A stretch of DNA of 41,862 bases, from positions 1 through 41,862 of the forward strand of contig JAHHGS010000106.1 in assembly GCA_019359715.1 (NCBI GenBank), in the 5' to 3' direction. This stretch comes from Aphanocapsa sp. GSE-SYN-MK-11-07L. GTDB lineage: Bacteria; Cyanobacteriota; Cyanobacteriia; Thermosynechococcales; Thermosynechococcaceae. Made by a program: the position numbers and the translations under genes. The notes below the pieces were generated by a model. It did not search any database. It saw only the letters and a list, made by a program, of their open reading frames with translations, and was not told the origin of the DNA. The stretch's first letter is position 1. Each line of letters begins with the position of its first letter. Below, piece after piece: positions 12,745 through 41,862 of the stretch.

Positions 12745-13389
12745 TGCTTCTTTAACATCCCGCCAATACTTCTTTAGATTACCCTCAGAGTTCAGGAATG
12801 ATCATCTAAATTTCTGCCCCTGCTCGTAAATCCAGACAGAAATTTCCAATCATTTGTTAGATTAAGCTGCCGATGTGGGCATCCTATGAATGTTGATTAG
12901 CTGAAACATTAAAAAAAAGTGACAGTCATATGACCAAGTGTTAAGTTAGAGTGGTTTACGTTTGTCAGGTAACGTTAGAGACGTGAAATTATTCTCTTCG
13001 ATCAAATTCACCTGGTATTCTCTGTGGCAATTGGGGGTCAAGCTACAGCGCCGTCGCCTATCTAACCCAACCCTATCTTGGGTGGATGGCTGCGAGGGGC
13101 CGAGTATTAGCTGATCGGCCTGCAACCTTTCGGTTTGTAGCTTTCGCCAACTGCGAATGACTAATTTTTCTGCAAACTGGGTCGATCAAGATTTAACAAC
13201 TCCGTTCACCAAGGATACTTGCTGCTTGCCAAGCTAGAAACGCTGTCTAAATTGGGCAACCTACAGATTATCGCTGTCAAAAAGCCATAGTGCCCTGTTG
13301 TTAGTTCTTGGTTTGGACGCTTCAGCTATCCCTCTCGGTCTCGGTTCGAAAGCATTTTTTGTTCCTCAACACCAAAGTGATTGTTTACT
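12745..13389. other. 645-bp intergenic region with a long leader
   Basis: No credible ORF on either strand. It contains a perfect 10-nt palindrome GTCATATGAC at 12925-12934 (possible operator), an A-run just before it, and consecutive stem-loops at 13065-13140 described separately. It must hold the promoters of both the pentapeptide gene (leftward) and the deoxyhypusine-synthase-like gene (rightward). Confidence 0.6.
13065..13148 (+). promoter_or_regulatory. Candidate structured RNA leader
   Basis: Three stem-loops follow one another. ACCCAA (13065-13070) pairs with TTGGGT (13078-13083). GGCCGA (13098-13103) pairs with TCGGCC (13115-13120). CTGCAACC (13120-13127) pairs with GGTTTGTAG (13132-13140) with one bulge. 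A looser outer pairing of GGCTGCGAG (from 13088) with CTTTCGCC (13141-13148) could close the last two into a three-way junction. It lies 240-325 nt upstream of the deoxyhypusine-synthase-like gene. I recognise no known riboswitch or cyanobacterial sRNA motif. Confidence 0.3.
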
Positions 13390-14565
13390 ATGTCTAAGCT
13401 ACTCAGCCGCAAAATTGTTCCTTCGCCAATTCCGGCCAACCTGAGCGTGGTGGATTTGGTTGATAACTACTTCAGTGCCTACAATTCTGCCCGGCTAAGA
13501 GAAATTTGCCATCTGCTGGCTCAAGAAGTGATGCAGCCAGGGGTAACTGTGGGCATGAGCCTCTCTGGGGCAATGACTCCGACCGGCTTAGGGATTTCTG
13601 CCCTCGCTCCGCTGGTACGGGCTGGCTTTATTGACTACATGATTAGCACCGGAGCCAACCTCTACCATGACCTTCATTACGGTCTAGGCATGGATTTGTA
13701 CGCTAGCCATCCCTTCGTCGATGATGTGAAACTGCGCCAAGAGAGCCGGATTCGGATCTACGACATCATTTTTGACTACGATGTGCTGCTAGAAACCGAT
13801 GCCTTTATTCGAGAAATCCTCCGCTCAGAAGCGTTCCAAAAGCGGATGGGCACGGCTGAATTTCACTACCTGCTGGGCAAGTATGTCCGAGAGGTAGAAC
13901 TGCAACTGGGTGTGCAGCATTCTTGCCTGCTGGCAACAGCCTACGAGTGTGGGATGCCCATCTATACGTCTTCACCCGGCGATAGCTCAATTGGGATGAA
14001 TATTGCTGCCTTGGCTTTGGAAGGGTCGCAACTGATCCTCGACCCATCCTTGGATGTGAATGAAACAGCGGCGATCGCCTATTTTGCCCGTGAGTCTGGC
14101 ATTCCTGACCTAGAAGGCAAAAGTGCCGTCGTGATCATCGGTGGCGGTAGCCCCAAAAACTTTATGCTGCAAACTCAACCTCAAATCCATGAGGTTTTGG
14201 GCTTAGAAGAACGCGGGCACGACTACTTTATCCAAATCACCGATGCTCGTCCTGATACGGGTGGTTTGTCTGGCGCTGTCCCCAGCGAGGCCGTCAGTTG
14301 GGGCAAGGTTGACCCAGATGGGCTGCAAGACACCGTGGTTTGCTACACAGACAGCACGATCGCCCTGCCGGTTTTGACGGCCTATGTGACTAGCCAGTGC
14401 CCACCGCGTCCCCTGAAGCGGCTCTACGATCGCCGCTCAGCCATGATTGAGGAACTACAGCGGCTCTACCTGCAAGCCCAATTTAAGCAGCAGGCTGAAG
14501 CAAAAGTTGGAGTCCTCAAGACTCAGCCTGTCGCAACCTACCCCTGCGGTACACCGATTAAGTAG
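13390..14565 (+). CDS. Deoxyhypusine synthase-like (homospermidine biosynthesis) protein
   Basis: A 391-aa Rossmann-fold NAD-dependent enzyme of the deoxyhypusine synthase superfamily. Family hallmarks are [15 protein letters not shown] near the N-terminus, [28 protein letters not shown], and the active-site segment SEAVSWGKV with the Lys that forms the covalent imine. Bacteria lack eIF5A, so such homologues are thought to act in polyamine metabolism (homospermidine or related products). The exact reaction here cannot be read from sequence. The start is ATG 13390; a TTG at 13381 is in frame. The gene has an unusually long, possibly structured leader and a hairpin 23 nt after its stop. Confidence 0.9.
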
Positions 14566-29718: not shown

Positions 29719-31152
29719 CTATTCTCCAGGAGCAAGTTTATTTTGACGTTCCCGCAGTTTGAGTAAAATTTCGGCGTGGACTTCGCGGGTAATCGGGTAA
29801 AAGTAAGCAAGCACCAGTCCTACTAGCAAGATCACGGTTGGAATCGGGCCAATTAATAGCCGAATGGTGAGCAGTGCCATCTCGGGTTGGGGGACTGGCT
29901 GTCCAGAGGTGCTAGGAACATAGCCTGCCCAGTTGAGGGCTTGCCCAACCAAAAACAGCCCGATCGCCAGCGCAACTTTTTGCAGCAGCACCATAAAGCC
30001 ATAAAAAATTCCTTCTCGGCGTTGCCCTGTATTCAGTTCGTCTAGTTCAATTACATCCGGCATCATTGACCAGGGGATGAGGTAAGCCGTCGAAACCCCA
30101 AACCCAGCCAGCACCGCTAGTCCATACATCCAGCCAATTTGGCCTGGCTGGAGAAAAAATAGCCCAATTTCAGCAATAATCCAAAGCCCCATCCCCATAA
30201 AGTAGACCGCTTTTTTACCAATCTGCTGACTAACCTGGCTCCAGACAAACAGCATCACCAAGGCAGTCACCTGAACCGCAATCACCACCTTGGTGAAGGT
30301 TTGGTTTGACAACCCCATCCAGTCCAAAACAAAGTAGGGAATGATCGCGACCGTGTTCTGAACCGCTAGCCAAGAGCACAGATAAATCCCAATCACGTAG
30401 AGAAACGGTCGGTTGGCAAAAACAATTTTTAACTGTTGCAGATAGGGTAAAGGCGCTTCATCCGAGTGGCTCGCCAGCCGCTCTCGCTCAGTTTCTTGGA
30501 CGCGCTGACGAGTCCCCCAGACGCACCAGTAAAGCGGCAAGACAGATAAAATCGCACAAATACCCCCCAGCACCAGATATTGCTGATTCGGGTCTTTAAT
30601 CACGCCAAAAATTCCAAACGCCAAGATTAATGACAGAATGCTGCCACTGATCGAAAAGGCAAACCGAAAGCTGTTCAGGCTGGTACGCTCGTCGTAGTCT
30701 TGGGTCAGTTCCGGGGTGAGAGCGGTGTAGGGCAGATTAACAATCGTATAAAACGTGTTGAACAAAATGGCGATCGCCACATAGTAGGCAACCAAACTCC
30801 AGCGATTCGTGGCGGGGTCAGAGCTGAACTGGGGGACTAACCACTGTAAAAAAAAGAACACCCCAAACGGAATCGCTCCAAACAGCATCCAGGGATGACG
30901 GCGACCCCAGCGGCTTTGGGTGCGATCGCTCAACATGCCGATAATCGGGTCATTAATCGCGTCCCAGACTTTGCTAACCAGCAAAATACTGCCAGCCAAG
31001 CCGGCACCTAGACCCGCCACATTGGTAAAAAACAGCAGTAAAAACACGCCCAAAATATTGGCAGTAATCGCTGGGCCGAGGTCTCCGGCTCCGTAGGCCA
31101 GTTTGGTATTAAAGCTGAGCTGGCGGGAAGTGGGCAAAACAGGTTGGCTCAT
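29719..31152 (-). CDS. GPH-family sugar:cation symporter (MFS)
   Basis: A 477-aa protein with 12 predicted transmembrane helices, of the glycoside-pentoside-hexuronide:cation symporter family (MelB-like). Hallmarks are LAYGAGDLG near the N-terminus, the cation and sugar-site region WDAINDPIIGMLSDRTQSRWGRR split by the first loop, and the second-half motif PWSMMPDVIELDELNTGQRREG. Likely imports or exports a glycoside or hexuronide with Na+ or H+; substrate unknown. It is separated by 100 bp from the divergent first TpsA gene and 146 bp from the membrane antitoxin gene. Confidence 0.92.
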   Translation of the reverse strand: MSQPVLPTSRQLSFNTKLAYGAGDLGPAITANILGVFLLLFFTNVAGLGAGLAGSILLVSKVWDAINDPIIGMLSDRTQSRWGRRHPWMLFGAIPFGVFFFLQWLVPQFSSDPATNRWSLVAYYVAIAILFNTFYTIVNLPYTALTPELTQDYDERTSLNSFRFAFSISGSILSLILAFGIFGVIKDPNQQYLVLGGICAILSVLPLYWCVWGTRQRVQETERERLASHSDEAPLPYLQQLKIVFANRPFLYVIGIYLCSWLAVQNTVAIIPYFVLDWMGLSNQTFTKVVIAVQVTALVMLFVWSQVSQQIGKKAVYFMGMGLWIIAEIGLFFLQPGQIGWMYGLAVLAGFGVSTAYLIPWSMMPDVIELDELNTGQRREGIFYGFMVLLQKVALAIGLFLVGQALNWAGYVPSTSGQPVPQPEMALLTIRLLIGPIPTVILLVGLVLAYFYPITREVHAEILLKLRERQNKLAPGE

Positions 31153-31212
31153 TGGCGGCTAAGGTTGGGGCTTTCCAAATTGTGCCTTAAACTGAGGGAT
31201 GCCCTTTTGGGC

Positions 31213-31227
31213 TTAATGACTCTCAAC
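31213..31227 (+). promoter_or_regulatory. Leader motif shared by both TpsA genes, copy 1
   Basis: TTAATGACTCTCAAC ends 25 nt before the ATG of the first TpsA gene. The same 15-mer with one change lies before the second gene, so it may be a duplicated promoter or 5'-UTR element. Confidence 0.4.
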
Positions 31228-31252
31228 CTTCAGAACTAATAGAACTAAACTG

Positions 31253-34200
31253 ATGCGCTACCGAACTTGGCTGGTCGGCTGTTGCCGTTTATCTGCTTGT
31301 GGGCTGTTAGGAACTTTAGGGGCGATCGCCATTGCTCCGGCTGTGTTGGCTCAGCCCAGCAATATTGTCCCAGACAATACGTTAGGCACTAACAACTCGA
31401 TCGTTGTGCCCAACGCGGGGGGACTTCGCCTAGAACTGATCGACGGTGGTGCTCAGCGGGGCGGCAACGTTTTCCACAGTTTTCAAGAATTCAACATCAG
31501 CAATGGGCGCGCCGCTTACTTTAACCAGCCCCAAGGGGTGATTAACATCCTTTCACGAGTGACAGGCACAAACCCCTCCCAAATTTTGGGCACCTTAGGA
31601 GTGGTTGGTTCTGCCAATTTGTTTTTTATTAACCCGAATGGAATTATCTTTGGCCCCAACGCCAGCCTGGATGTGGGCGGAGCCTTTGTGGCCAGTACCG
31701 CTAACGCAATTCGGCTTGGCCCGAATGGGCTGTTTAGCGCCTCTGATCCGGCCAGCAGCAACTTACTCAATATTCAGCCCTCGGCTTTATTTTTCAACGC
31801 TCTCGGTCAGCCCAAGCCGATCATCAATCAGTCCACTGCCACCAGTAGCGCTTTGGGAGGCTTCCTCAATGGCAACCCCCAACGCAGCATTACCGGACTT
31901 CAGGTTTTGGATGGTCAATCTTTGCTGCTAGTGGGTGGGCCAATTAGTATGCCTGGCGGCAAACTCACTGCCTTTGATGGGCGGATAGAAATAGCCGCCA
32001 TTGGGGGGCAAGGCAATGTGGGTTTAATCAGTCAAGGTCAAACCCTAAGTTTAAGCTTGCCAGCCAATTTGCCAAGAGCAGATATTAATTTCAGTCAAGA
32101 GGGGACTGCCGAGGTCAGCGGTCTGGGGGTTGGCAATATCAGTCTCTATGCCAATAACTTCACTGCGACGGGAGGCGGTGGTTTGGGGTCTAGGATTAAT
32201 GTGGACGGAGATTCAATCATTACCCCTGGACTGATTCGGGTAGATGTTACCAATGCTCTCACCCTAGATGGAGGCAGTGGAATTGCCAGCACTGCCAGTG
32301 CCAATAGCCTGCCTGGAACGAAGGCCACCAATATTGTTATCGATGCGGGCAGCGTGACATTGACAAACCTCGGTTTTATTGGTTCTCTCTCCGGTTTTAC
32401 TGACACTGATCGCCAGTATCGAGGTGATGCTGGAGATGTCTTCATTCGTGCCAGAGAAGAAATTCTACTTGACAACGGAATTATTTTCAGTGGAGTCTTT
32501 AGCAATGGAATTGGCAATGGCGGCAATATTTTCTTGCAGGGGCGATCGCTGACTGTCCAAAATGGGGGAGGCATTTCCGCTCAAACGGACGGTCAAGGTA
32601 ATGCTGGCAGCATCAAAGTGGAAGTCACTGCTGATATCACGGTCAAGAATCGCTCTCTAATTGAAGCTGCGACCTCGACAGCAGGCAAGTCTGGCAGCAT
32701 CGATTTACTGGCGGGAGGAGATATTTCCCTGGATGGGGGATTTATTGCTAACTTGATTATTGATTCTGCGACAGGAAGTGGGAATGACATTACAATCGAG
32801 GCGCGATCGCTATCCCTCGACAACAATGGGATTATAACATCGAGTACATTAGGGCAAGGCAACGCTGGCAATATCAATCTTAATGTCGGAACGCTATCCG
32901 TTGCCAATGATTCAGTTATCGCCTCAAGTACGCTTGGGCAAGGCAATGCGGGCAATGTTAAGATTGGTGCCCTAAGTGATATCACTGTCGCCAATGGAGG
33001 GAAAATTCGCTCTGACACCCAGGGCACGGGCAATGCTGGCAAGATTGACCTGACAGCAGGAGGTAACATTCTGCTCTTAGGGACAGGCGTGTTCGGAACG
33101 ACTGGAATCACAAGTGAGATTAACATTGCTGCCCAGGGGCAGGGAAACAACATTTCAATTAATGCGAAATCGCTGACTTTAACTGATGCGGCTAGCATCA
33201 ATGCCAGCACCAGTGGGATCGGGGATGCTGGTAATATCTTAGCGAATGTGGATGGGGATATCACCTTAACTAATGGCTCATTGATTCAGGCTGCAAGTGT
33301 GGGACAGGGAGATGCTGGCAGCATTAATCTTTCAGCGGGTGGAAATATTGCTATCAGTGGAGCAGATCAAACGCCCAGTGGAATTGCTACTTTTACTTCT
33401 AATACTGCTGTTGGCGACGGTAAAGACATTACGCTCAAAGCGCGCTCCCTGGCGTTGACCAACAATGCACTTGTGGCAGCAAGTACATTCGGGCAAGGCA
33501 ATGCGGGCAATATCAAGATTGACGTTTCAGATGGTATTTCCCTGGTTGGAGCTGGACAAATTCAATCTCTTTCAAGTGGCAGAGGCAATGCTGGCAAGAT
33601 TGATATCAATGCTGGGGGCGATATCCTACTGAATGGAGCCGGCGGCACCAACCTAACCGGCATTAGTAACACAATTAATCCCAATGCGATTGGTGAAGGT
33701 CAAGACATCGTGATCAACGCGCGATCGCTAACGCTGACCAATGGCGCAATCGTATCGGCAAGCACATTTGGGCAAGGCAATGCCGGCAATATCGAAATTG
33801 ACGTTGTAGGGGATGTTGCTCTGGTTGGAGCCGGACAAATTCAGTCTCTCACGGGTGGCAGAGGCAACGCTGGCAAGATTGATATCAATGCTGGCAACAG
33901 GATTAGACTAGAGGGAACTGGCAGGTATGAGACAACTACGATTACTAATGCAATTATTGGGTCTGCGATTGGCGAGGGGAATAATATTACGCTACAAGCC
34001 AATTCGCTGACGATTTCAAATAGCGCGATTGTGGCAGCAAGTACGTTAGGGCAAGGCAGTGCGGGTAATGTCAACATTAATATTTCAGGTGATATTGCTC
34101 TGTCTAGGGGTGGGCAGATTCAGTCAATTACGGGTGGTCAAGGCGATGCTGGCAAGATTGACATTAGTGCCGGCGGCAATATTCTACTGGATGGCACATC

Positions 34201-37135
34201 CGCAGAAAACACGACGGCAATTGGTAACGTCATTGCCGAATCTGGCATCGGCGAAGGTAAAGATCTTTCAATTAATGCCCGCTCATTGACGGTTACAGAA
34301 AATGCCTTTGTCGGAGCAAGCACGCTTGGTCAAGGCAGTGCAGGTAATATCATGATTAACGTCTCAGACGACATCTCTCTGCTGAGGGGGGGGCAAATTC
34401 AGTCCTTTACTAGCGGACAAGGGAATGCTGGCAAGATTGACCTCAATGCCGGCGGCAACATTTTGCTGGAGGGAACCGGTACCCTGGGTACGGCTGGGGT
34501 GAGGAACACAATTGGCTCATCGGCAATTGGTGAGGGCAATGACATTACGATTAGAGGGCGATCGCTGACCTTAACCGATGCGGCTGTTGTGAATGCCAGT
34601 ACCTTTGGCACAGGCAATGCTGGCAATATCAACATTGACGTGACAGAGAGTGTTTCTGCGCTTAGGGGTGGACAAATTTTGTCTTTAACCAGAGGCAACG
34701 GTAATGCCGGGAACATTGATATTACGGCTGGCGGACAGATTCAACTTGTCGGTATTGCCACAGATGGCAGCCTGAGTAAGATCAGCACTGAAATTGGCAC
34801 AGCCGGGATTGGGGATGGCAATGGCATTCGCCTCCAGGCTCAATCCCTGAGTATTGGCAATGGTGGTCTGGTCGTGACGAGTACGAGCGGCATCGGGAGT
34901 GCGGGCAACATTGATATCAGCGTCGATGATGGGATTTCGGTTGCTGATGGGGGCCAAATTCAGGCAGCCACGTATGGACAGGGAGATGCGGGCAGTATTA
35001 GCTTGCTGGCCGGGAATCGAATTAGCGTTGACGGTCAAGATGCGAGTGGTTCTCCTTCGCTGATTACCAACTTGGTCTCAGAGACCAGTGGCGGAGAAGG
35101 GGCTGATATTGAAATCCGAGCCGAGTCTCTCTCCTTGAGTAATGGCGGGATATTGGGAACAACAACCCTGGGGCAAGGCAATGCCGGAAATATTGATGTC
35201 CAGACCACCAATGAAATTTTCTTGGGCGGCAGCTCAGGCATTCTGACATCAACAACTGGGCAGGGAGATGGGGGCAGCATGCGGTTGTTGGCAGGTACAA
35301 ACGTCTTTCTGGGCAATCAGTCGCAATTGACAACCAGCACCAGAGGACAAGGTAATGCCGGTAACTTAGAGGTTCAAACGGGGAATGGAATTTTTGTTAC
35401 GGGTGGTTCCCTAATCCAAGCCGCAACGATTGGTTATGGAGATGGCGGCAACATTAATTTGCAGGCGGGTGGGCAAATTTCTTTAGACGGTAACTCTAGT
35501 CAGATTACCAGCGCAGTTTCACCCAATCCTGATCCTGCTGCCCAGGGGCAGGGAGGCAACATCAGTATCCAGGCTCAAAGCCTGGGTCTGACCAATGGGG
35601 GACTCGTTTCCGCCAATACTGCTGCCAACGGAAATGCAGGCAATATCAATATTTCAACTCAAAATACTGTCGCTCTTAGCGGCGACAGCAGTATTGATAG
35701 CAGTACCGCCGGGATTGGCAATGGCGGAATTATTGATTTGACAACCCGATCGCTCTCCTTAACCGATGGCGGTCAAATTTCGGCGGCGGTTGTGCGAGGG
35801 CAAGATGGGGCGTTAGGAGGTCAAGGTCGAGGCGGCACGATCAGAATTAACGCCGATCAAATTGATATTTCTGGAGTCAGCTTCGCAGGTTCCCCCAGTG
35901 GTCTATTTGCACTCAATCAGATTGGTACGGCCGGCTCAGCGGGGGATATTTTAATTAACGCTAATAGTTTAACGGTTAACGAGGCTGGGGTAATTGCTGC
36001 CGGGACAAATAACCTCGCTCCAGGTGGCAATATTACAATCAATACCACCAATTTTTCTGCCCTCGATGGCGGGCAAGTTGTTACCGCCAGTCAGAGCGGC
36101 GGCAATGCGGGTACAATTCAGCTAAATGCGACGGGTGATCTGATTTTGGCTGGACGAGAAATCGACTTTCAGCAGCGGATTGTTCAACTGCAACAAACCC
36201 AAACTTTGACAAATGTCCAACGACAACAGGACTTAGGGGCAAGCGATCGCCAAGGGTTGAGCGGCTTATTTGCCGGGACTAGCCCCAGCTCGACAGGCAG
36301 CAGCGGCAGCATCCAAGTCAATTCAAATCAGTTGACCCTGCGCGATGGAGCCACAATCACGGTTGATAGTCGCGGGACTGGAGATGGCGGCAACCTAAAT
36401 ATTCAAACGGGCAATCTGCTGCTAAACAATGGGGCCTCACTTAATGCAGCGACAGCAAGCGGGGAAGGCGGCAATATTTCACTCAACGTCGGTAATTTTC
36501 TGCAAATGCGCCAAAACAGCATCATCTCTGCCCAAGCGCAGGGGACTGGCAACGGGGGCAATATCAACATCAGTACTCGCTTTTTAATCGCGGCTCAGAA
36601 TAGTGACATTGTTGCTAACGCCTTTGAAGGCAGAGGTGGCAATATTCAGATCACGACGCAAGGTATTTTTGGGATTCAGGCGCGCGATTTTCTCACTCCT
36701 TTGAGTGATATTAATGCCAGCTCGCAGTTTGGGACTGATGGCGTTGTGCAGATCAATACGACCGTCGATCCGAGCCGAGAGTTGGTCTCGTTGCCCTCCT
36801 TGGTGGTTGATGTCTCTGGGTTAATTGCCCAGGGCTGCCGAGCCGAAACCACCACCGCCAGTCGGTTCGTCGTTACAGGGCGGGGTGGGTTGCCAACCAA
36901 CCCAGGTGACTTACTTACCAATGAACCGGTTTTGAATGATTTGGGTCAGCCGGTTGGGATGTCACCTAGTTCACCAGAGGCAACTCCGCCTGAGCAGAAA
37001 AGTCAAGCCGCACCACCGCCGATTGTGGAGGCCCAAGGCTGGGTGGTTCGCCCTGACGGCAAAATTGTTCTGACAGCCCAAACGGCCGTAGCTCAGCCAA
37101 TTTGGTTTAAAACCCCTGCTTGCGAAGGCAATTGA
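31253..37135 (+). CDS. TpsA-type two-partner-secretion exoprotein (filamentous haemagglutinin N-terminal domain)
   Basis: A 1960-aa predicted surface or secreted beta-helix protein. The signal peptide spans 1-33 (core LLGTLGAIAIAPAV, cleavage after VLA). The TPS domain (about 34-250) has QRGGNVFHSF, NILSRVTG, NLFFINPNGIIFGPNASLDVGG and related signatures needed for recognition by a TpsB pore. The middle is a long repeat array (G-x-GNAGNI, ITLxARSLTLTN units) with a very regular 93-residue period. The C-terminal module (FGIQARDFLTPLSDINASSQFG, LIAQGCRAE, LPTNPGDLL, GWVVRPDGKIVL) is shared with the next gene. No TpsB partner or CHAT-domain gene lies in the window. Likely role: adhesion or aggregation. 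The ATG at 31253 directly precedes the signal peptide. Confidence 0.95.
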   Translation: MRYRTWLVGCCRLSACGLLGTLGAIAIAPAVLAQPSNIVPDNTLGTNNSIVVPNAGGLRLELIDGGAQRGGNVFHSFQEFNISNGRAAYFNQPQGVINILSRVTGTNPSQILGTLGVVGSANLFFINPNGIIFGPNASLDVGGAFVASTANAIRLGPNGLFSASDPASSNLLNIQPSALFFNALGQPKPIINQSTATSSALGGFLNGNPQRSITGLQVLDGQSLLLVGGPISMPGGKLTAFDGRIEIAAIGGQGNVGLISQGQTLSLSLPANLPRADINFSQEGTAEVSGLGVGNISLYANNFTATGGGGLGSRINVDGDSIITPGLIRVDVTNALTLDGGSGIASTASANSLPGTKATNIVIDAGSVTLTNLGFIGSLSGFTDTDRQYRGDAGDVFIRAREEILLDNGIIFSGVFSNGIGNGGNIFLQGRSLTVQNGGGISAQTDGQGNAGSIKVEVTADITVKNRSLIEAATSTAGKSGSIDLLAGGDISLDGGFIANLIIDSATGSGNDITIEARSLSLDNNGIITSSTLGQGNAGNINLNVGTLSVANDSVIASSTLGQGNAGNVKIGALSDITVANGGKIRSDTQGTGNAGKIDLTAGGNILLLGTGVFGTTGITSEINIAAQGQGNNISINAKSLTLTDAASINASTSGIGDAGNILANVDGDITLTNGSLIQAASVGQGDAGSINLSAGGNIAISGADQTPSGIATFTSNTAVGDGKDITLKARSLALTNNALVAASTFGQGNAGNIKIDVSDGISLVGAGQIQSLSSGRGNAGKIDINAGGDILLNGAGGTNLTGISNTINPNAIGEGQDIVINARSLTLTNGAIVSASTFGQGNAGNIEIDVVGDVALVGAGQIQSLTGGRGNAGKIDINAGNRIRLEGTGRYETTTITNAIIGSAIGEGNNITLQANSLTISNSAIVAASTLGQGSAGNVNINISGDIALSRGGQIQSITGGQGDAGKIDISAGGNILLDGTSAENTTAIGNVIAESGIGEGKDLSINARSLTVTENAFVGASTLGQGSAGNIMINVSDDISLLRGGQIQSFTSGQGNAGKIDLNAGGNILLEGTGTLGTAGVRNTIGSSAIGEGNDITIRGRSLTLTDAAVVNASTFGTGNAGNINIDVTESVSALRGGQILSLTRGNGNAGNIDITAGGQIQLVGIATDGSLSKISTEIGTAGIGDGNGIRLQAQSLSIGNGGLVVTSTSGIGSAGNIDISVDDGISVADGGQIQAATYGQGDAGSISLLAGNRISVDGQDASGSPSLITNLVSETSGGEGADIEIRAESLSLSNGGILGTTTLGQGNAGNIDVQTTNEIFLGGSSGILTSTTGQGDGGSMRLLAGTNVFLGNQSQLTTSTRGQGNAGNLEVQTGNGIFVTGGSLIQAATIGYGDGGNINLQAGGQISLDGNSSQITSAVSPNPDPAAQGQGGNISIQAQSLGLTNGGLVSANTAANGNAGNINISTQNTVALSGDSSIDSSTAGIGNGGIIDLTTRSLSLTDGGQISAAVVRGQDGALGGQGRGGTIRINADQIDISGVSFAGSPSGLFALNQIGTAGSAGDILINANSLTVNEAGVIAAGTNNLAPGGNITINTTNFSALDGGQVVTASQSGGNAGTIQLNATGDLILAGREIDFQQRIVQLQQTQTLTNVQRQQDLGASDRQGLSGLFAGTSPSSTGSSGSIQVNSNQLTLRDGATITVDSRGTGDGGNLNIQTGNLLLNNGASLNAATASGEGGNISLNVGNFLQMRQNSIISAQAQGTGNGGNINISTRFLIAAQNSDIVANAFEGRGGNIQITTQGIFGIQARDFLTPLSDINASSQFGTDGVVQINTTVDPSRELVSLPSLVVDVSGLIAQGCRAETTTASRFVVTGRGGLPTNPGDLLTNEPVLNDLGQPVGMSPSSPEATPPEQKSQAAPPPIVEAQGWVVRPDGKIVLTAQTAVAQPIWFKTPACEGN
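33479..34594 (+). repeat. Four 279-bp tandem coding repeats in the first TpsA
   Basis: The segment coding (A/S)AST-x-GQGNAGNI begins at 33479, 33758, 34037, 34316 and 34595, each exactly 279 nt (93 codons) apart. Flanking units deviate: 276 nt before and 282 nt after. Unit content is GNAGKIDI-AGG-ILL, then AIGEG-DI-I-ARSLTLT, then the AST motif. Confidence 0.9.
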
Positions 37136-37212
37136 GATTTGTATCAGATTGCTGATCTGAGCTGTCATAGGTTTAGAACTAAAACAGAGGCCTGGTACTT
37201 AAGGGGTCTAAT

Positions 37213-37227
37213 TTAAGGACTCTCAAC
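37213..37227 (+). promoter_or_regulatory. Leader motif shared by both TpsA genes, copy 2
   Basis: TTAAGGACTCTCAAC differs from the copy at 31213-31227 at one base. It ends 15 nt before the ATG of the second TpsA gene. Confidence 0.4.
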
Positions 37228-37242
37228 TGTTGTTTGGGGTTT

Positions 37243-40200
37243 ATGGGCGACCAACCTTGGTTTGACTGGTTTTGGGTTGCGGCGACTTTCGGGGCGATCG
37301 CCGTAAGTCAGCCTGCACTAGCCCAACCCAGCCAAATTGTCCCAGACAATACCTTGGGCAGTCGTAGCTCCGTTGTTATCCCCAACGCCGAAGGGCTGCC
37401 GTTGGAACGGCTGGTTGGCGGCGATCAACGGGGGGGAAACCTTTTTCACAGTTTTTTAGAATTCAATGTCAGCAACGGGCGAGCGGCCTACTTCGACCAG
37501 CCCCAAGGGGTGATTAACATTCTCTCTCGCGTCACGGGTAAAAATTCCTCCCAGATTCTGGGCACCTTGGGAGTGATTGGTTCAGCCAATCTGTTTTTTA
37601 TCAACCCAAATGGAATTATCTTTGGCCCCAACGCCAGCTTAGATGTGGGCGGAGCCTTTGTCGCCAGCACCGCCAACGCAATTCGTCTCGGAGAAAATGG
37701 GTTATTTAGCGCTTCCGACCCGGACAGCAGCAATTTACTCAGCATTCAGCCCTCAGCCCTATTTTTTAATGCCTTGGGTCAACCCAAGTCAATCGTTAAC
37801 CAGTCAACCGCTACGAGTAATGTGCTGGGGCAATCTTTGAATGGTGATCCGCAGCGAGCAATCTATGGGCTGCAAGTGCTGGATGGTCAGCCCTTATTGC
37901 TGGTCGGTGGGCCAATTCGTCTGCCAGGTGGAGTTTTGACAGCCTTGGATGGTCGGGTGGAGCTGGCTGCGATCGGTGGGCCGGGTAATGTGGGTTTGAG
38001 CGGTCAAGGTCAAACGCTGCGATTGAGTCTGCCAGCAAATTTGCCCAGAGCAGATATTTCTCTGAGTAATCAAGCTGCGGTATATGTGACAGGTCAAGGA
38101 ACAGGCGCGATCGCCATTGTTGCCGATAACTTGAGCCTGACTCAGGGCAGTTTGCTGTATGCCGGGATTTATAGCGGCGGCACTTCTGCCCCCAGCAGTC
38201 CAGGAGATATTCAAATTAATACGACCCAAAACCTGACCTTAGAAGCTGAGAGCGGCATTTTTAATCCGATCGGCAACAATTTAACCCCCGGAGCCAGGGC
38301 AGGTAACATTTTGATTGATACCGGCAATCTGAAAGTTGTTAACGCTGCCATTGGTTCCTTTACCGAAAGTCTGGGCGACTCAGGTAACGTGATCATCCAA
38401 GCCCAAAATGCAGTCATCCTCAACGGTGGGAGCATTTTTAGCACAGTTGACTCAGGCGGTGTTGGTAATGCAGGTCAGGTTACGATTGCCGCTGACTCTC
38501 TGGCTCTGTCCAATGGTGCGTATCTCAGTTCTAGTACCTTCGGACAGGGCAATGCAGGCAGGATTACAATTCAAATCAGCGATGCGGTCGCATTGGATGG
38601 GGTGAGCGGTGACTATTCAAGCGCGATTTTCAGCACCGTTGAACAAGGGGCAGTGGGCAATGGCGGCAGTATTGATATCACAGCCAAATCTCTGGGGTTG
38701 ACCAACGGGGCATTGCTCAGCGCCAGCACGTGGGGGATAGGCAACGCTGGCAATATCACCCTGCGGGTCGCAGAAGCTGTGGCGTTGGATGGGGTTGGCA
38801 GTAACACGGTGTTTAGCAATATTACAAGCGATGTCAACTTGGGTGCGATCGGGCAGGGAGGCAACATCGACATTGCAGCCAGATCACTGAGCTTGACCAA
38901 TGGAGCGTTTCTCAGCGCCAGCACCTTGGGTACGGGAAACGCCGGTAATATTACTTTGCGGGTCGCAGAAGCTGTGGCGTTGGATGGTGTCAGCGGTAAA
39001 TTTTCCAGTGCGATTTTTAGCACGGTTGAACAAGGTGCAGTCGGGGATGGCGGTAATATCAACATCGCAGCCAAAACCCTGAGCTTGACAAATGGCGCTG
39101 CCTTGACGGTGGATATTTCTGGTCAAGGAAATGCGGGAACGATTAGCCTTGAGGCGACAGATGCGATCGCCATTGATGGAGTGGGCAGCAATCAGGTGGC
39201 CAGTGGCGTATACAGCAGTGTCAGGCCAGCCGGAATCGGTCAGGGGGGCAACATTAATATCACGGCTAAATCGCTGATGATGACCAACGGCGGCAGCTTG
39301 AGAGCGGATACCTTTGGCCACGGCAATGCAGGCAATATTACCCTTCAGGCAACGGCGATCGCCATCAATGGCATTAACGGTATCAACCTGGCAAGTGGCG
39401 CTTTTAGCACGGTTGGAGCAGAGGCAGTTGGCAACGGTGGCAGGATTGATATTTATACTAAGTCTCTAGCATTAACGAATGGAGCCGCCTTGAGTTCTAG
39501 CACCTTTGGCCGGGGCAACGCTGGCAACATTACGATTCAGGCGATGGAGTCCGTCCGGCTGGATGGTACGAGTGCAGGTTTTTCCAGTACGATTTTCAGC
39601 ACGGTTGAACAGGGTGCAGTGGGGAATGGGGGCAACATCAACATCACTGCTAAATCCCTGAGTTTGACGAATGGAGCTGCCCTGGCAGGTAATACCTTTG
39701 CCAATGGCAGCGCCGGGAACATCTTTGTCCAGGCCAGCGATGCTGTTCGGTTGGATGGAGTAGGACAGAATGGCGTTTCAAGCGCCATCTTCAGCGATGT
39801 CAGCTCAGAGGCAGTGGGCAATGGCGGTAACATCAACATCACAGCCAAATCTCTGAGCCTAACCAACGGCGCTGCCTTAAGAGCAGATACCTTTGGGCAA
39901 GGCAATGCGGGCAATATCTTGATTCAGACAACCGATGCAGTTTGGCTAGAGGGAGTGGGCAGCAATGGCGTTTCGAGTCGCCTGCTGACCCAAGCGGAGC
40001 CAGGTTCGATCGGCAGGGGGGGAAACATCACGATCGCAACAGGTGATTTTCAGGTATCAAAGGGAGCGGTGGTGAATGCTCAAACCTCGAATTCAGACCC
40101 TGGCGGCAATATCACGATCACTGCCAAGACTTTTGCCGCCCTTGAAGGCGGACAGTTGCTAACGACAACCTCCAGCAGCGGTCAAGCTGGTAGTATTAAT

Positions 40201-41178
40201 TTGCAGATTTCAGATCATCTGACTTTAGCCGGGAGCGATCGCACATTTCAGGCTCGACTGGCTCAGTATGGGCCGATGATTGTCACCAATCAAGGAGCCG
40301 CCAGCGGTCTGTTTGCGAACACTGCCCCTGGCTCTAGCGGTGCTGGGGGTAGTATTGTGATTGACCCTGATCAGATGATCCTGCGGGATGGAGCAACAAT
40401 TACGGTTGACAGTCGCGGCACCGGCAATGCTGGCAATCTGAGCATTCAGGCAGGCAATCTGCTGCTAGACAATGGTGCCTCACTCAGCGCGGCCACGGCC
40501 AGCGGGGAAGGCGGTAATATTTGGCTGAATGTGGCTAACTTGCTGCAAATGCGCCAGAACAGCCTGATCTCGGCCGAAGCGCAGGGCACCGGCAACGGTG
40601 GCAATATTGACCTGAACACCCGCTTTTTAGTAGCGATCGGAAACAGTGACATTGTTGCCAATGCCTTTGAGGGCAGAGGGGGCAGTATTCAGATCACTGC
40701 CCAAGGGATTTTTGGGATTCAGGCGCGTGATTTTCTGACCCCCTTGAGCGATATTAACGCTAGCTCCCAGTTTGGGATTGATGGCGTTGTGCAGGTGAAC
40801 ACAACAGTTGACCCCAGTAGCGGGCTGACAGTGCTGCCCTCGCAAGTGATTGATGCCTCTAGTTTAATTGCCCAAGGCTGTCGGGCAGTGGGCAGTGTCA
40901 CCAGTAAGCTGGTGGTGTCAGGACGAGATGGCTTACCAACGAACCCTGGTGATTTGCTAAGCACTGAGCTAGTCTTGCTTGATTTGGGTCAACCAGAGGT
41001 TTCACTTTCTCTCACATATCGATCCAAGGCGAACTATCCTCAGCCTAAGAATCAAGCTGAGCCAATCGTGGAAGCCGAAAGTTGGGTTATTCGTCCTGAC
41101 GGTAAAGTAGTTTTGACCGCCCAGAATGGTCAGGCTCAGCCGACTTGGTTTATCCCCCTACTCTGTCCTCCCGATTGA
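37243..41178 (+). CDS. Second TpsA-type two-partner-secretion exoprotein
   Basis: An about 1311-aa paralogue of the preceding gene, 107 bp downstream. The signal peptide is atypical: acidic and aromatic at the start (MGDQPWFDWFWV) with no basic n-region, then AATFGAIAVSQPALA (cleavage after A27). The TPS domain (about 28-245) is very close to the first copy, including long nearly identical stretches from NILSRVTG to FGPNASLDVGG. The centre is a repeat array of 64/65 residues (AVALDGV, FSTVEQGAVGNGGNI, AKSLSLTNGA). The C-terminal module with FLTPLSDINASSQFG, LIAQGCRAV and LPTNPGDLL matches the first copy. The start is uncertain: TTG 37234 is also in frame. Likely secreted by the same, unlinked TpsB pore. 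Confidence 0.93.
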   Translation: MGDQPWFDWFWVAATFGAIAVSQPALAQPSQIVPDNTLGSRSSVVIPNAEGLPLERLVGGDQRGGNLFHSFLEFNVSNGRAAYFDQPQGVINILSRVTGKNSSQILGTLGVIGSANLFFINPNGIIFGPNASLDVGGAFVASTANAIRLGENGLFSASDPDSSNLLSIQPSALFFNALGQPKSIVNQSTATSNVLGQSLNGDPQRAIYGLQVLDGQPLLLVGGPIRLPGGVLTALDGRVELAAIGGPGNVGLSGQGQTLRLSLPANLPRADISLSNQAAVYVTGQGTGAIAIVADNLSLTQGSLLYAGIYSGGTSAPSSPGDIQINTTQNLTLEAESGIFNPIGNNLTPGARAGNILIDTGNLKVVNAAIGSFTESLGDSGNVIIQAQNAVILNGGSIFSTVDSGGVGNAGQVTIAADSLALSNGAYLSSSTFGQGNAGRITIQISDAVALDGVSGDYSSAIFSTVEQGAVGNGGSIDITAKSLGLTNGALLSASTWGIGNAGNITLRVAEAVALDGVGSNTVFSNITSDVNLGAIGQGGNIDIAARSLSLTNGAFLSASTLGTGNAGNITLRVAEAVALDGVSGKFSSAIFSTVEQGAVGDGGNINIAAKTLSLTNGAALTVDISGQGNAGTISLEATDAIAIDGVGSNQVASGVYSSVRPAGIGQGGNINITAKSLMMTNGGSLRADTFGHGNAGNITLQATAIAINGINGINLASGAFSTVGAEAVGNGGRIDIYTKSLALTNGAALSSSTFGRGNAGNITIQAMESVRLDGTSAGFSSTIFSTVEQGAVGNGGNINITAKSLSLTNGAALAGNTFANGSAGNIFVQASDAVRLDGVGQNGVSSAIFSDVSSEAVGNGGNINITAKSLSLTNGAALRADTFGQGNAGNILIQTTDAVWLEGVGSNGVSSRLLTQAEPGSIGRGGNITIATGDFQVSKGAVVNAQTSNSDPGGNITITAKTFAALEGGQLLTTTSSSGQAGSINLQISDHLTLAGSDRTFQARLAQYGPMIVTNQGAASGLFANTAPGSSGAGGSIVIDPDQMILRDGATITVDSRGTGNAGNLSIQAGNLLLDNGASLSAATASGEGGNIWLNVANLLQMRQNSLISAEAQGTGNGGNIDLNTRFLVAIGNSDIVANAFEGRGGSIQITAQGIFGIQARDFLTPLSDINASSQFGIDGVVQVNTTVDPSSGLTVLPSQVIDASSLIAQGCRAVGSVTSKLVVSGRDGLPTNPGDLLSTELVLLDLGQPEVSLSLTYRSKANYPQPKNQAEPIVEAESWVIRPDGKVVLTAQNGQAQPTWFIPLLCPPD
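38533..40080 (+). repeat. 192/195-bp tandem coding repeats in the second TpsA
   Basis: The codon aligned to the S of the ST-F-G-GNAGNI motif falls at 38533, 38725, 38920, 39112, 39307, 39499, 39691 and 39886. The spacings are 192, 195, 192, 195, 192, 192 and 195 nt, giving eight units of 64 or 65 residues. The unit is GNAGNI-L---AVALDGV, then SxIFS-V--GAVGNGGNI-I, then AKSLSLTNGA. Confidence 0.88.
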
Positions 41179-41189
41179 ACGTAATCGCG

Positions 41190-41300
41190 GCAGTCCCTAC
41201 CCTCAGCGAAGCGGGGTAAGGAAGGATAGCGCCCTTCGGCTCGGACTTCGGCGTGAGGCTTCGACGGTGAGCTCAGCCGAACCGCGCTCAGTCGAACGCT
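41190..41300. repeat. GC-rich inverted-repeat-rich segment
   Basis: This short region after the second TpsA gene is full of small inverted repeats: TACCC ... GGGTA around a GAAGC core, CTTCGG repeated twice, and GAGC/GCTC pairs. It reads like the dispersed GC-rich repeats of cyanobacteria (segments such as TTCGACGGTGAGCTCAGCC). No ORF is supported in it. Copy number cannot be judged from this window. Confidence 0.45.
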
Positions 41301-41384
41301 CAGGAGCCAGGCAATGACGAATTGTGCCCTTGACTGATGCGAAACGCAGTTGAGCAAAGGATTAGGCACGATGAGGAATTGCCA

Positions 41385-41513
41385 CTAACCTTTCGGATTA
41401 GGAAGCCGTTTGATATAGTCCACGAGCATTTCAGAGACACTAACATTTCGCTCTTTAGCAATCTTTTCGGCTTTGATTTTGAGTTCTGGAGAAATCCTAA
41501 TGTCGATTCGGAA
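41385..41513 (-). pseudogene. RHH-type antitoxin remnant, 5' end lost
   Basis: The minus strand encodes 42 residues up to TAG 41385: RIDIRISPELKIKAEKIAKE followed by NVSVSEMLVDYIKRLPNPKG. This matches ribbon-helix-helix antitoxins (DUF6364-like). Upstream in frame there is a TAA at 41514-41516 and no start codon. That is also where the tnpB-like segment begins, so the first codons appear to have been replaced. An unusual ATT start cannot be excluded. Confidence 0.6.
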
Positions 41514-41740
41514 TTACTCCGGGTGGACGTATCCTTGCACATCAGGATGGAAAGCGCACACAACGGGCGATAACGGGTCTTTAGATTTGTCCAATCTGGG
41601 GCAGATTCAGATGCGCGGCAAAGCTCGTCAGTGGGGCACGCCATCGACCTGCACGATTTTGTATCGGCACGGAAAATGGTTTGCGTCGATCACCGTCAAA
41701 GGTGAGCCAGTTCGCGAAACAGGGATAGGTGCAATCGAGT
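41512..41740 (+). pseudogene. tnpB internal fragment (IS200/IS605 family)
   Basis: The plus frame (codon phase as for ATG 41500) encodes YSGWTYPCTSGWKAHTTG, then LDLSNLGQIQMRGKAR, TPSTCTILYRHGKWFASITV and VRETGIGAI. This matches the segment of TnpB-type proteins just before the RuvC-I motif (normally GAIG-D-G). Similarity stops at about 41737-41740 and the frame ends at TGA 41758 after unrelated residues. Neither the N-terminus nor any catalytic residue is present, so this is a fragment. Confidence 0.65.
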
Positions 41741-41862
41741 GCATCCCACTTTTGCAATGAGTATAAGTACTTAGGACTAATGTTCTGAAGCAACGCTAAA
41801 CTTTGAGTAATTGACCTCTCCCCCAGGAAACGTATGGACAGTGCCAAGAAGACCAAAATCCA
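41740..41862 (+). mobile_element. Probable left end of another IS, continuing beyond the window
   Basis: At the point where tnpB similarity is lost the sequence becomes GCATCCCACTTTTGCAATGA, which has the look of an IS terminus. About 90 bp later an AGGAAACGT precedes ATG 41834, opening a frame MDSAKKTKI that runs off the window. A transposase start is plausible but only 9 codons are visible. Family not assigned. Confidence 0.35.

Follow-up and report, generated by a model that had tools for sequence, protein, structure and literature searches.

The best-described relatives of the genes considered here are the TpsA exoproteins, among them FHA, HMW1, HxuA and EtpA. The HMW1 and HMW2 paralogues have conserved ends. 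Their binding domain is described as variable in PMC8262952, which also attributes phase variation of HMW1A to 7-bp repeats in its promoter. Imperfect repeats in the rod are ascribed to all TpsA proteins in PMC5422565, and PMC11463764 gives EtpA three 228-residue repeats plus a partial one. For cyanobacteria, we found no literature centred on TpsA rod repeats among open-licence PMC articles, a weak negative at that scope, and PMC4793230, consulted for type Vb systems in these bacteria, offered nothing specific.

The window (the whole stretch of DNA analysed, 41,862 nucleotides) corresponds to contig C106; the draft genome totals 5.1 Mb and comprises 159 contigs. The window carries two TpsA-like genes, A and B, on the same strand and separated by 98 bases (Table 1). 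Each encodes a single TPS domain (PF05860) scoring above the Pfam cut-off, at aa 37-286 in A (E 2.5e-45) and aa 34-293 in B (E 7.9e-47). We consider it likely that A and B are old tandem TpsA (type Vb) paralogues whose rods are made of the same rungs, taken in threes in A and in twos in B; export, adhesion and the manner of rod growth are parts of this reading that we infer.

Table 1. Positions of genes A and B and their parts in the window, with amino acid (aa) ranges counted within each protein.
Feature	Coordinates	Strand	Basis
Gene A, TpsA-like exoprotein, 1960 aa	31253-37135	+	ATG start; ORF and Pfam TPS
Gene A conserved N end with TPS secretion domain, aa 34-311	31352..32185	+	77% aa identity to gene B
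Gene A array with exact 279-nt period, aa 778-1149, four units of L(36)+S(28)+M(29)	33584..34699	+	Rung table, A-unit profile
Gene A conserved C end, aa 1656-1900	36218..36952	+	72% aa identity to gene B
Gene B, TpsA-like exoprotein, 1314 aa	37234-41178	+	TTG start; ORF and Pfam TPS
Gene B conserved N end with TPS domain, aa 31-308	37324..38157	+	Pfam and alignment to A
Gene B array, aa 439-926, with eight L rungs and seven units of L(36/37)+S(28)	38548..40011	+	Rung table, profile
Gene B conserved C end, aa 1010-1254	40261..40995	+	Alignment to A

The start of gene B may lie further upstream than the called TTG, because its signal region (37234-37330) has no Lys or Arg ahead of the hydrophobic stretch, whether read from the TTG or from the in-frame ATG at codon 4, and because the frame stays open for another 17 codons upstream. 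Scanning the A-B intergenic region for promoters and terminators returned none; with only 0.1 and 0.2, respectively, expected, this absence carries no information.

Gene A contains five copies of a 232-nt repeat whose starts are spaced 279, 279, 279 and 279 nt apart (repeat family D1). These four exact spacings bear out the initial annotation, which had described repeats of exactly 279 bp (93 aa) over at least four consecutive units, and TRF detected the same period at 33411-34161 with 71% matches. Cutting the protein at a recurring glycine motif resolved each unit into three rungs in the order L-S-M (36 + 28 + 29 = 93 aa). Beyond the exact array, the rung table shows the spacing shifting to 92 and 94 aa, and degenerate units of 92-94 aa flank the array at aa 593-777 and 1150-1337. 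In gene B, L rungs of 36 or 37 aa alternate with S rungs of 28 aa. Its units start at aa 439, 503, 568, 632, 697, 761, 825 and 890, eight starts that enclose seven full periods of 64, 65, 64, 65, 64, 64 and 65 aa (192, 195, 192, 195, 192, 192 and 195 nt; repeat family D2). Both lengths reported earlier for gene B were thus recovered, but the strict alternation claimed for its eight units was not, as two 192-nt periods are adjacent.

A profile (HMM) built from the seven L-S units of B matched A at aa 778-841, 871-934, 964-1027 and 1057-1120, that is, at the L+S part of each of the four exact A units (25.0-44.0 bits), and further A units as well, for a full score of 290.9. Conversely, the A-unit profile found gene B with a full score of 301.3, and neither profile matched any of 100 shuffled sequences (50 of A and 50 of B). 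A tree of 36 rungs, rough in that the pieces are 28-37 aa long and no support values are quoted, placed the S rungs of A with those of B and the L rungs with L rungs, with M apart. For hand-set units, the mean L+S identity was 0.49 within A, 0.59 within B and 0.38 between the genes. In simple pairwise alignment the last figure (0.383) exceeded that of shuffled sequences (0.318) modestly, and we regard the profile match as the stronger evidence for shared units. An automatic L-S parser gave a less reliable 0.367, as it mis-starts some A units (for example, at 803), and aligning overlapping windows of the arrays yielded only shifted self-alignments.

Because the profiles cross-match and rungs group by type across the genes, the 93-aa unit of A is the 64/65-aa unit of B plus one 29-aa rung (M). 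Gain of M in A seems likelier than its loss from B, because L-S is the common pattern elsewhere. The initial annotation was therefore right that the centres differ in unit length, but the L and S rungs are common to both, and its proposal that the rods were built from different units gives way to what is in essence one unit with and without the additional rung, close to the outcome that the annotation itself had named as contradicting it. A differing repeat period between paralogues need not imply different building blocks.

We used AlphaFold2 to predict structures for aa 686-963 of A (15-row alignment) and aa 439-696 of B (20 rows). Both models are beta-helices, with mean pLDDT of 95.4 and 95.7, respectively, and three strands per rung; three rungs fill 93 aa in A and two fill 64-65 aa in B. 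The extra residues of the L rungs form a loop after the second strand and before the third; in places pLDDT is lower there, with blocks of 82-84. S and M rungs are shorter and M is loop-free, such that loops recur at every second rung in B and every third in A. Foldseek returned no PDB row at E ≤ 0.001 for either model, and the fold match rests on VIA-align, run on the Foldseek candidates. The secretion domain of EtpA aligned to B with Z 19.0 (rmsd 2.0 Å, 194 residues aligned) and to A with Z 21.0 (2.2 Å, 216 residues), and HMW1 with Z 18.9 and 20.9, respectively. Other beta-helix proteins scored below these TpsA structures (Z about 12-16); a curli CsgA row reached Z 17.5 with the A model, but at an rmsd of 8.4. 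A rod profile search of PDB sequences retrieved only three chance-level tau rows (E 0.19-0.43). The rods of A and B are thus predicted to be TpsA-like beta-helices of imperfect repeats.

On our preferred reading, both proteins would be exported by Sec, and a TpsB pore whose gene lies elsewhere in the genome would recognize their TPS domains. Once outside, the remainder would fold into a long, three-sided beta-helix capped by the conserved C-terminal module. By analogy with the family, adhesion to surfaces or to other cells would be the likeliest use. Each rod would have lengthened in its own gene, once the paralogues had separated, as whole rung modules were duplicated in frame, and the ends would have been maintained by purifying selection.

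A search of the whole genome for TPS domains gave five matches, two of them genes A and B. TpsB (PF03865) was also matched five times, four times nearly in full and once in part (profile positions 4-136 of 311). None of these matches is on the A/B contig; a tpsB gene could still adjoin gene B beyond the contig edge, because the contig stops 684 bases after gene B. Elsewhere in the genome, a C-terminal TpsA piece lies near a contig end (G000 contig C30, 15492-15935, minus strand, partly within locus L082), pointing to another TpsA gene that the assembly truncated; the same contig bears a TpsB match. The TpsB genes in loci L079, L082 and L083 (G000 contigs C18, C30 and C81) lie near long ORFs whose sequences resemble TPR-plus-CHAT proteins. 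Upstream in the window, a deoxyhypusine synthase-family gene occupies 13381-14565 on the plus strand (PF01916, E 1.2e-66). This family is best known from eukaryotes and archaea.

The conserved ends of the two genes are 73% identical in nucleotides at the N end (dS 1.64, dN 0.158) and 72% at the C end (dS 1.37, dN 0.193). Fourfold sites are identical at 51 of 110 and 42 of 95 positions, respectively, against a chance level of about 0.27, and the ends are thus old and near-saturated at synonymous sites yet not fully randomized. In a tree of 63 N-domain sequences, A and B were sisters with support of 1.0, and in a tree of 59 C-domain sequences with 0.988. The distances between them (0.28 and 0.25) compare with at least 0.78 to any other sequence. 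Sister ends agree with the initial annotation in that A and B are TpsA paralogues with conserved ends and divergent centres. Given dS values of 1.6 and 1.4 and no significant conversion tract, an old duplication followed by purifying selection would suffice to account for the ends.

For the centres, sequence comparison gave a less uniform picture. The B centre matched an ORF of Nostocales HT-58-2 (L042_p13424) at 44% over 553 columns (315 bits), and gene A was absent from its best eight rows. The best match of the A centre was B (31%, 224 bits), in a near tie with Elainella (219 bits). At the level of single units, B averaged 0.42 to HT-58-2 versus 0.37-0.38 to A, and the B-unit profile scored six ORFs of other genomes above A. 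Because the centre of B is nearer to those of other genera than to that of A, also per unit, it is the rod of A that has diverged, having either regrown from an altered three-rung unit or come from elsewhere. For the same reason, independent growth of the two rods from one ancestral rod would not be the sole possible history. Part of this closeness may be a register effect, because an L-S rod aligns gaplessly to other L-S rods and an L-S-M rod does not.

These comparisons bear on an alternative in which the ends stayed paired while recombination with a different TpsA gene gave one of the two a new centre, leaving rods of different origin. Such an exchange would reconcile sister ends with a B centre that matches other genera best, at 315 bits against the 224 bits of A, and with six foreign ORFs outscoring A under the B-unit profile. 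We nevertheless think it unlikely. The centre of A finds B as its own best match, identity declines gradually from both ends into the rod with no sharp breakpoint, and at aa 1396-1459 A retains rungs L and S in succession, to which the B profile gives 46.1 bits. No close donor turned up. Growth of the two rods from shared rungs remains our preferred reading. When we compared the order of units in B with that in four foreign rods (best-diagonal test), it was not conserved one to one (p 0.08-0.91), and because different species have no unit order in common, the arrays appear to turn over on long time scales.

We rate lower still, as quite improbable, the possibility that gene conversion homogenizes the ends while the rods drift, an option that the initial annotation had raised for the ends. 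It would be consistent with the sister relationship in both trees, with an identical run of 30 nt between the ends and with a local dip in dS, which falls to 0.44 across codons 80-119 of the N alignment (A aa 114-153). However, this dip coincides with the amino acid peak of the TPS domain, around which identity tapers gradually, and each conserved domain has such a peak (98% at A127-166 and 95% at A1783-1822). Permutation revealed no significant clustering of identity at the N end (longest run, p 0.126; best 20-codon window, p 0.096) or the C end (run, p 0.41; window, p 0.75), and overall dS and fourfold identity are those of old, near-saturated copies. Conversion in the distant past could have contributed; old duplication with purifying selection accounts for the ends without it.

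The remaining proposal of the initial annotation, phase- or antigen-like diversification through changes in repeat number, is hardly credible, as the DNA of the units differs by 28-43% and neither the genes nor their surroundings contain a simple-sequence tract of the kind used for phase variation, unlike in hmw1A. The units of A share 57-72% DNA identity, with a longest identical run of 26 nt and dS ranging from 0.65 to saturated, and those of B have a mean amino acid identity of 0.59. At a score of 30, TRF reported in 30900-41862 only the 279-nt array and two 7-nt tracts within gene B (3.3 and 2.1 copies), and we rejected simple-sequence phase variation, there being no short tandem tract in the promoter or coding start. 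PMC8201768 reports that tandem-domain rods of Periscope proteins can vary in length, which would favour diversification, as would the differing unit order between species, although the latter points to long-term turnover. According to the same source, extreme variation in length goes with repeats of the highest identity, adjacent SHIRT domains being 82-100% identical in protein; highly identical repeats of this type were not found in A or B. A draft assembly may collapse perfectly identical units, but those present are too different for that. Rapid antigen or phase switching is thus not supported by the sequence, and the pair adds no new diversification system.

To place the rods among their relatives, we surveyed TPS ORFs of 600 aa or more, 74 in all, of which 10 come from this window or genome (some being duplicate fragments). 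The other 64 may include near-duplicate species. Named relatives of the A and B proteins include many from cyanobacteria, best-scoring rows among them, which makes a cyanobacterial host probable. In 29 genomes of the family, matches at E 1e-100 or better came from the genome itself and one other only. At least three consecutive L-S pairs were present in 18 of the 64 outside ORFs, and at least three consecutive long-short-short sets in one (L046). The strongest self-match lag was 63-67 aa in many ORFs and 93 aa in one other (L048). Locus L042 of Nostocales HT-58-2 has four TpsA ORFs of at least 1000 aa within 28 kb, with strongest lags of 131, 59, 65 and 66 aa, and the TpsA lags at locus L041 of Elainella saxicola E1 are 156, 175 and 67 aa. 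Because these loci also combine several TpsA periods, it is not unique to this window that adjacent TpsA genes differ in period. With some hesitation, and at low confidence, we extend this to cyanobacterial TpsA proteins in general: matched ends might be kept, perhaps because paralogues use one TpsB and one anchor, and the rods might be swapped or reassembled module by module from a few common rung types, so that the trait that evolves is the spacing of loops, at every second or third rung.

Set against the described systems, A and B are ordinary TpsA exoproteins, new members of a known family. They carry the TPS domain, predicted three-strand beta-helix rungs and rods of imperfect repeats, and EtpA and HMW1 are the best structural matches of their models. 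They differ from FHA, HMW1, HxuA and EtpA in having no tpsB alongside on the contig, rungs of 28-37 aa, every second or third of them looped, and a rod sequence with no relative in the PDB. Like HMW1/HMW2 of Haemophilus influenzae, they are TpsA paralogues in one genome, two in number, with a variable central region; unlike them, they are adjacent, have no tpsB of their own on the contig and lack heptanucleotide promoter repeats. With EtpA they share, in prediction, a long beta-helix assembled from whole-rung modules; their units are of 93 or 64/65 aa with loops on the L rungs, whereas the repeat region of EtpA is described as having no extra-helical extensions. Among other cyanobacterial TpsA proteins, the exact 93-aa L-S-M array is rarer, the lag of 93 aa and the long-short-short pattern each recurring in only one of the 64 ORFs. 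Those of Nostocales HT-58-2 and Elainella saxicola E1 share L-S rungs, periods of 65-67 and 130-132 aa, and multi-TpsA loci of mixed periods. Within this family, the A/B pair offers a clear illustration, in just two genes, of how the rods of beta-helical exoproteins may be extended in whole-rung modules, and the comparison yields a testable idea, the spacing of loops along the rod.
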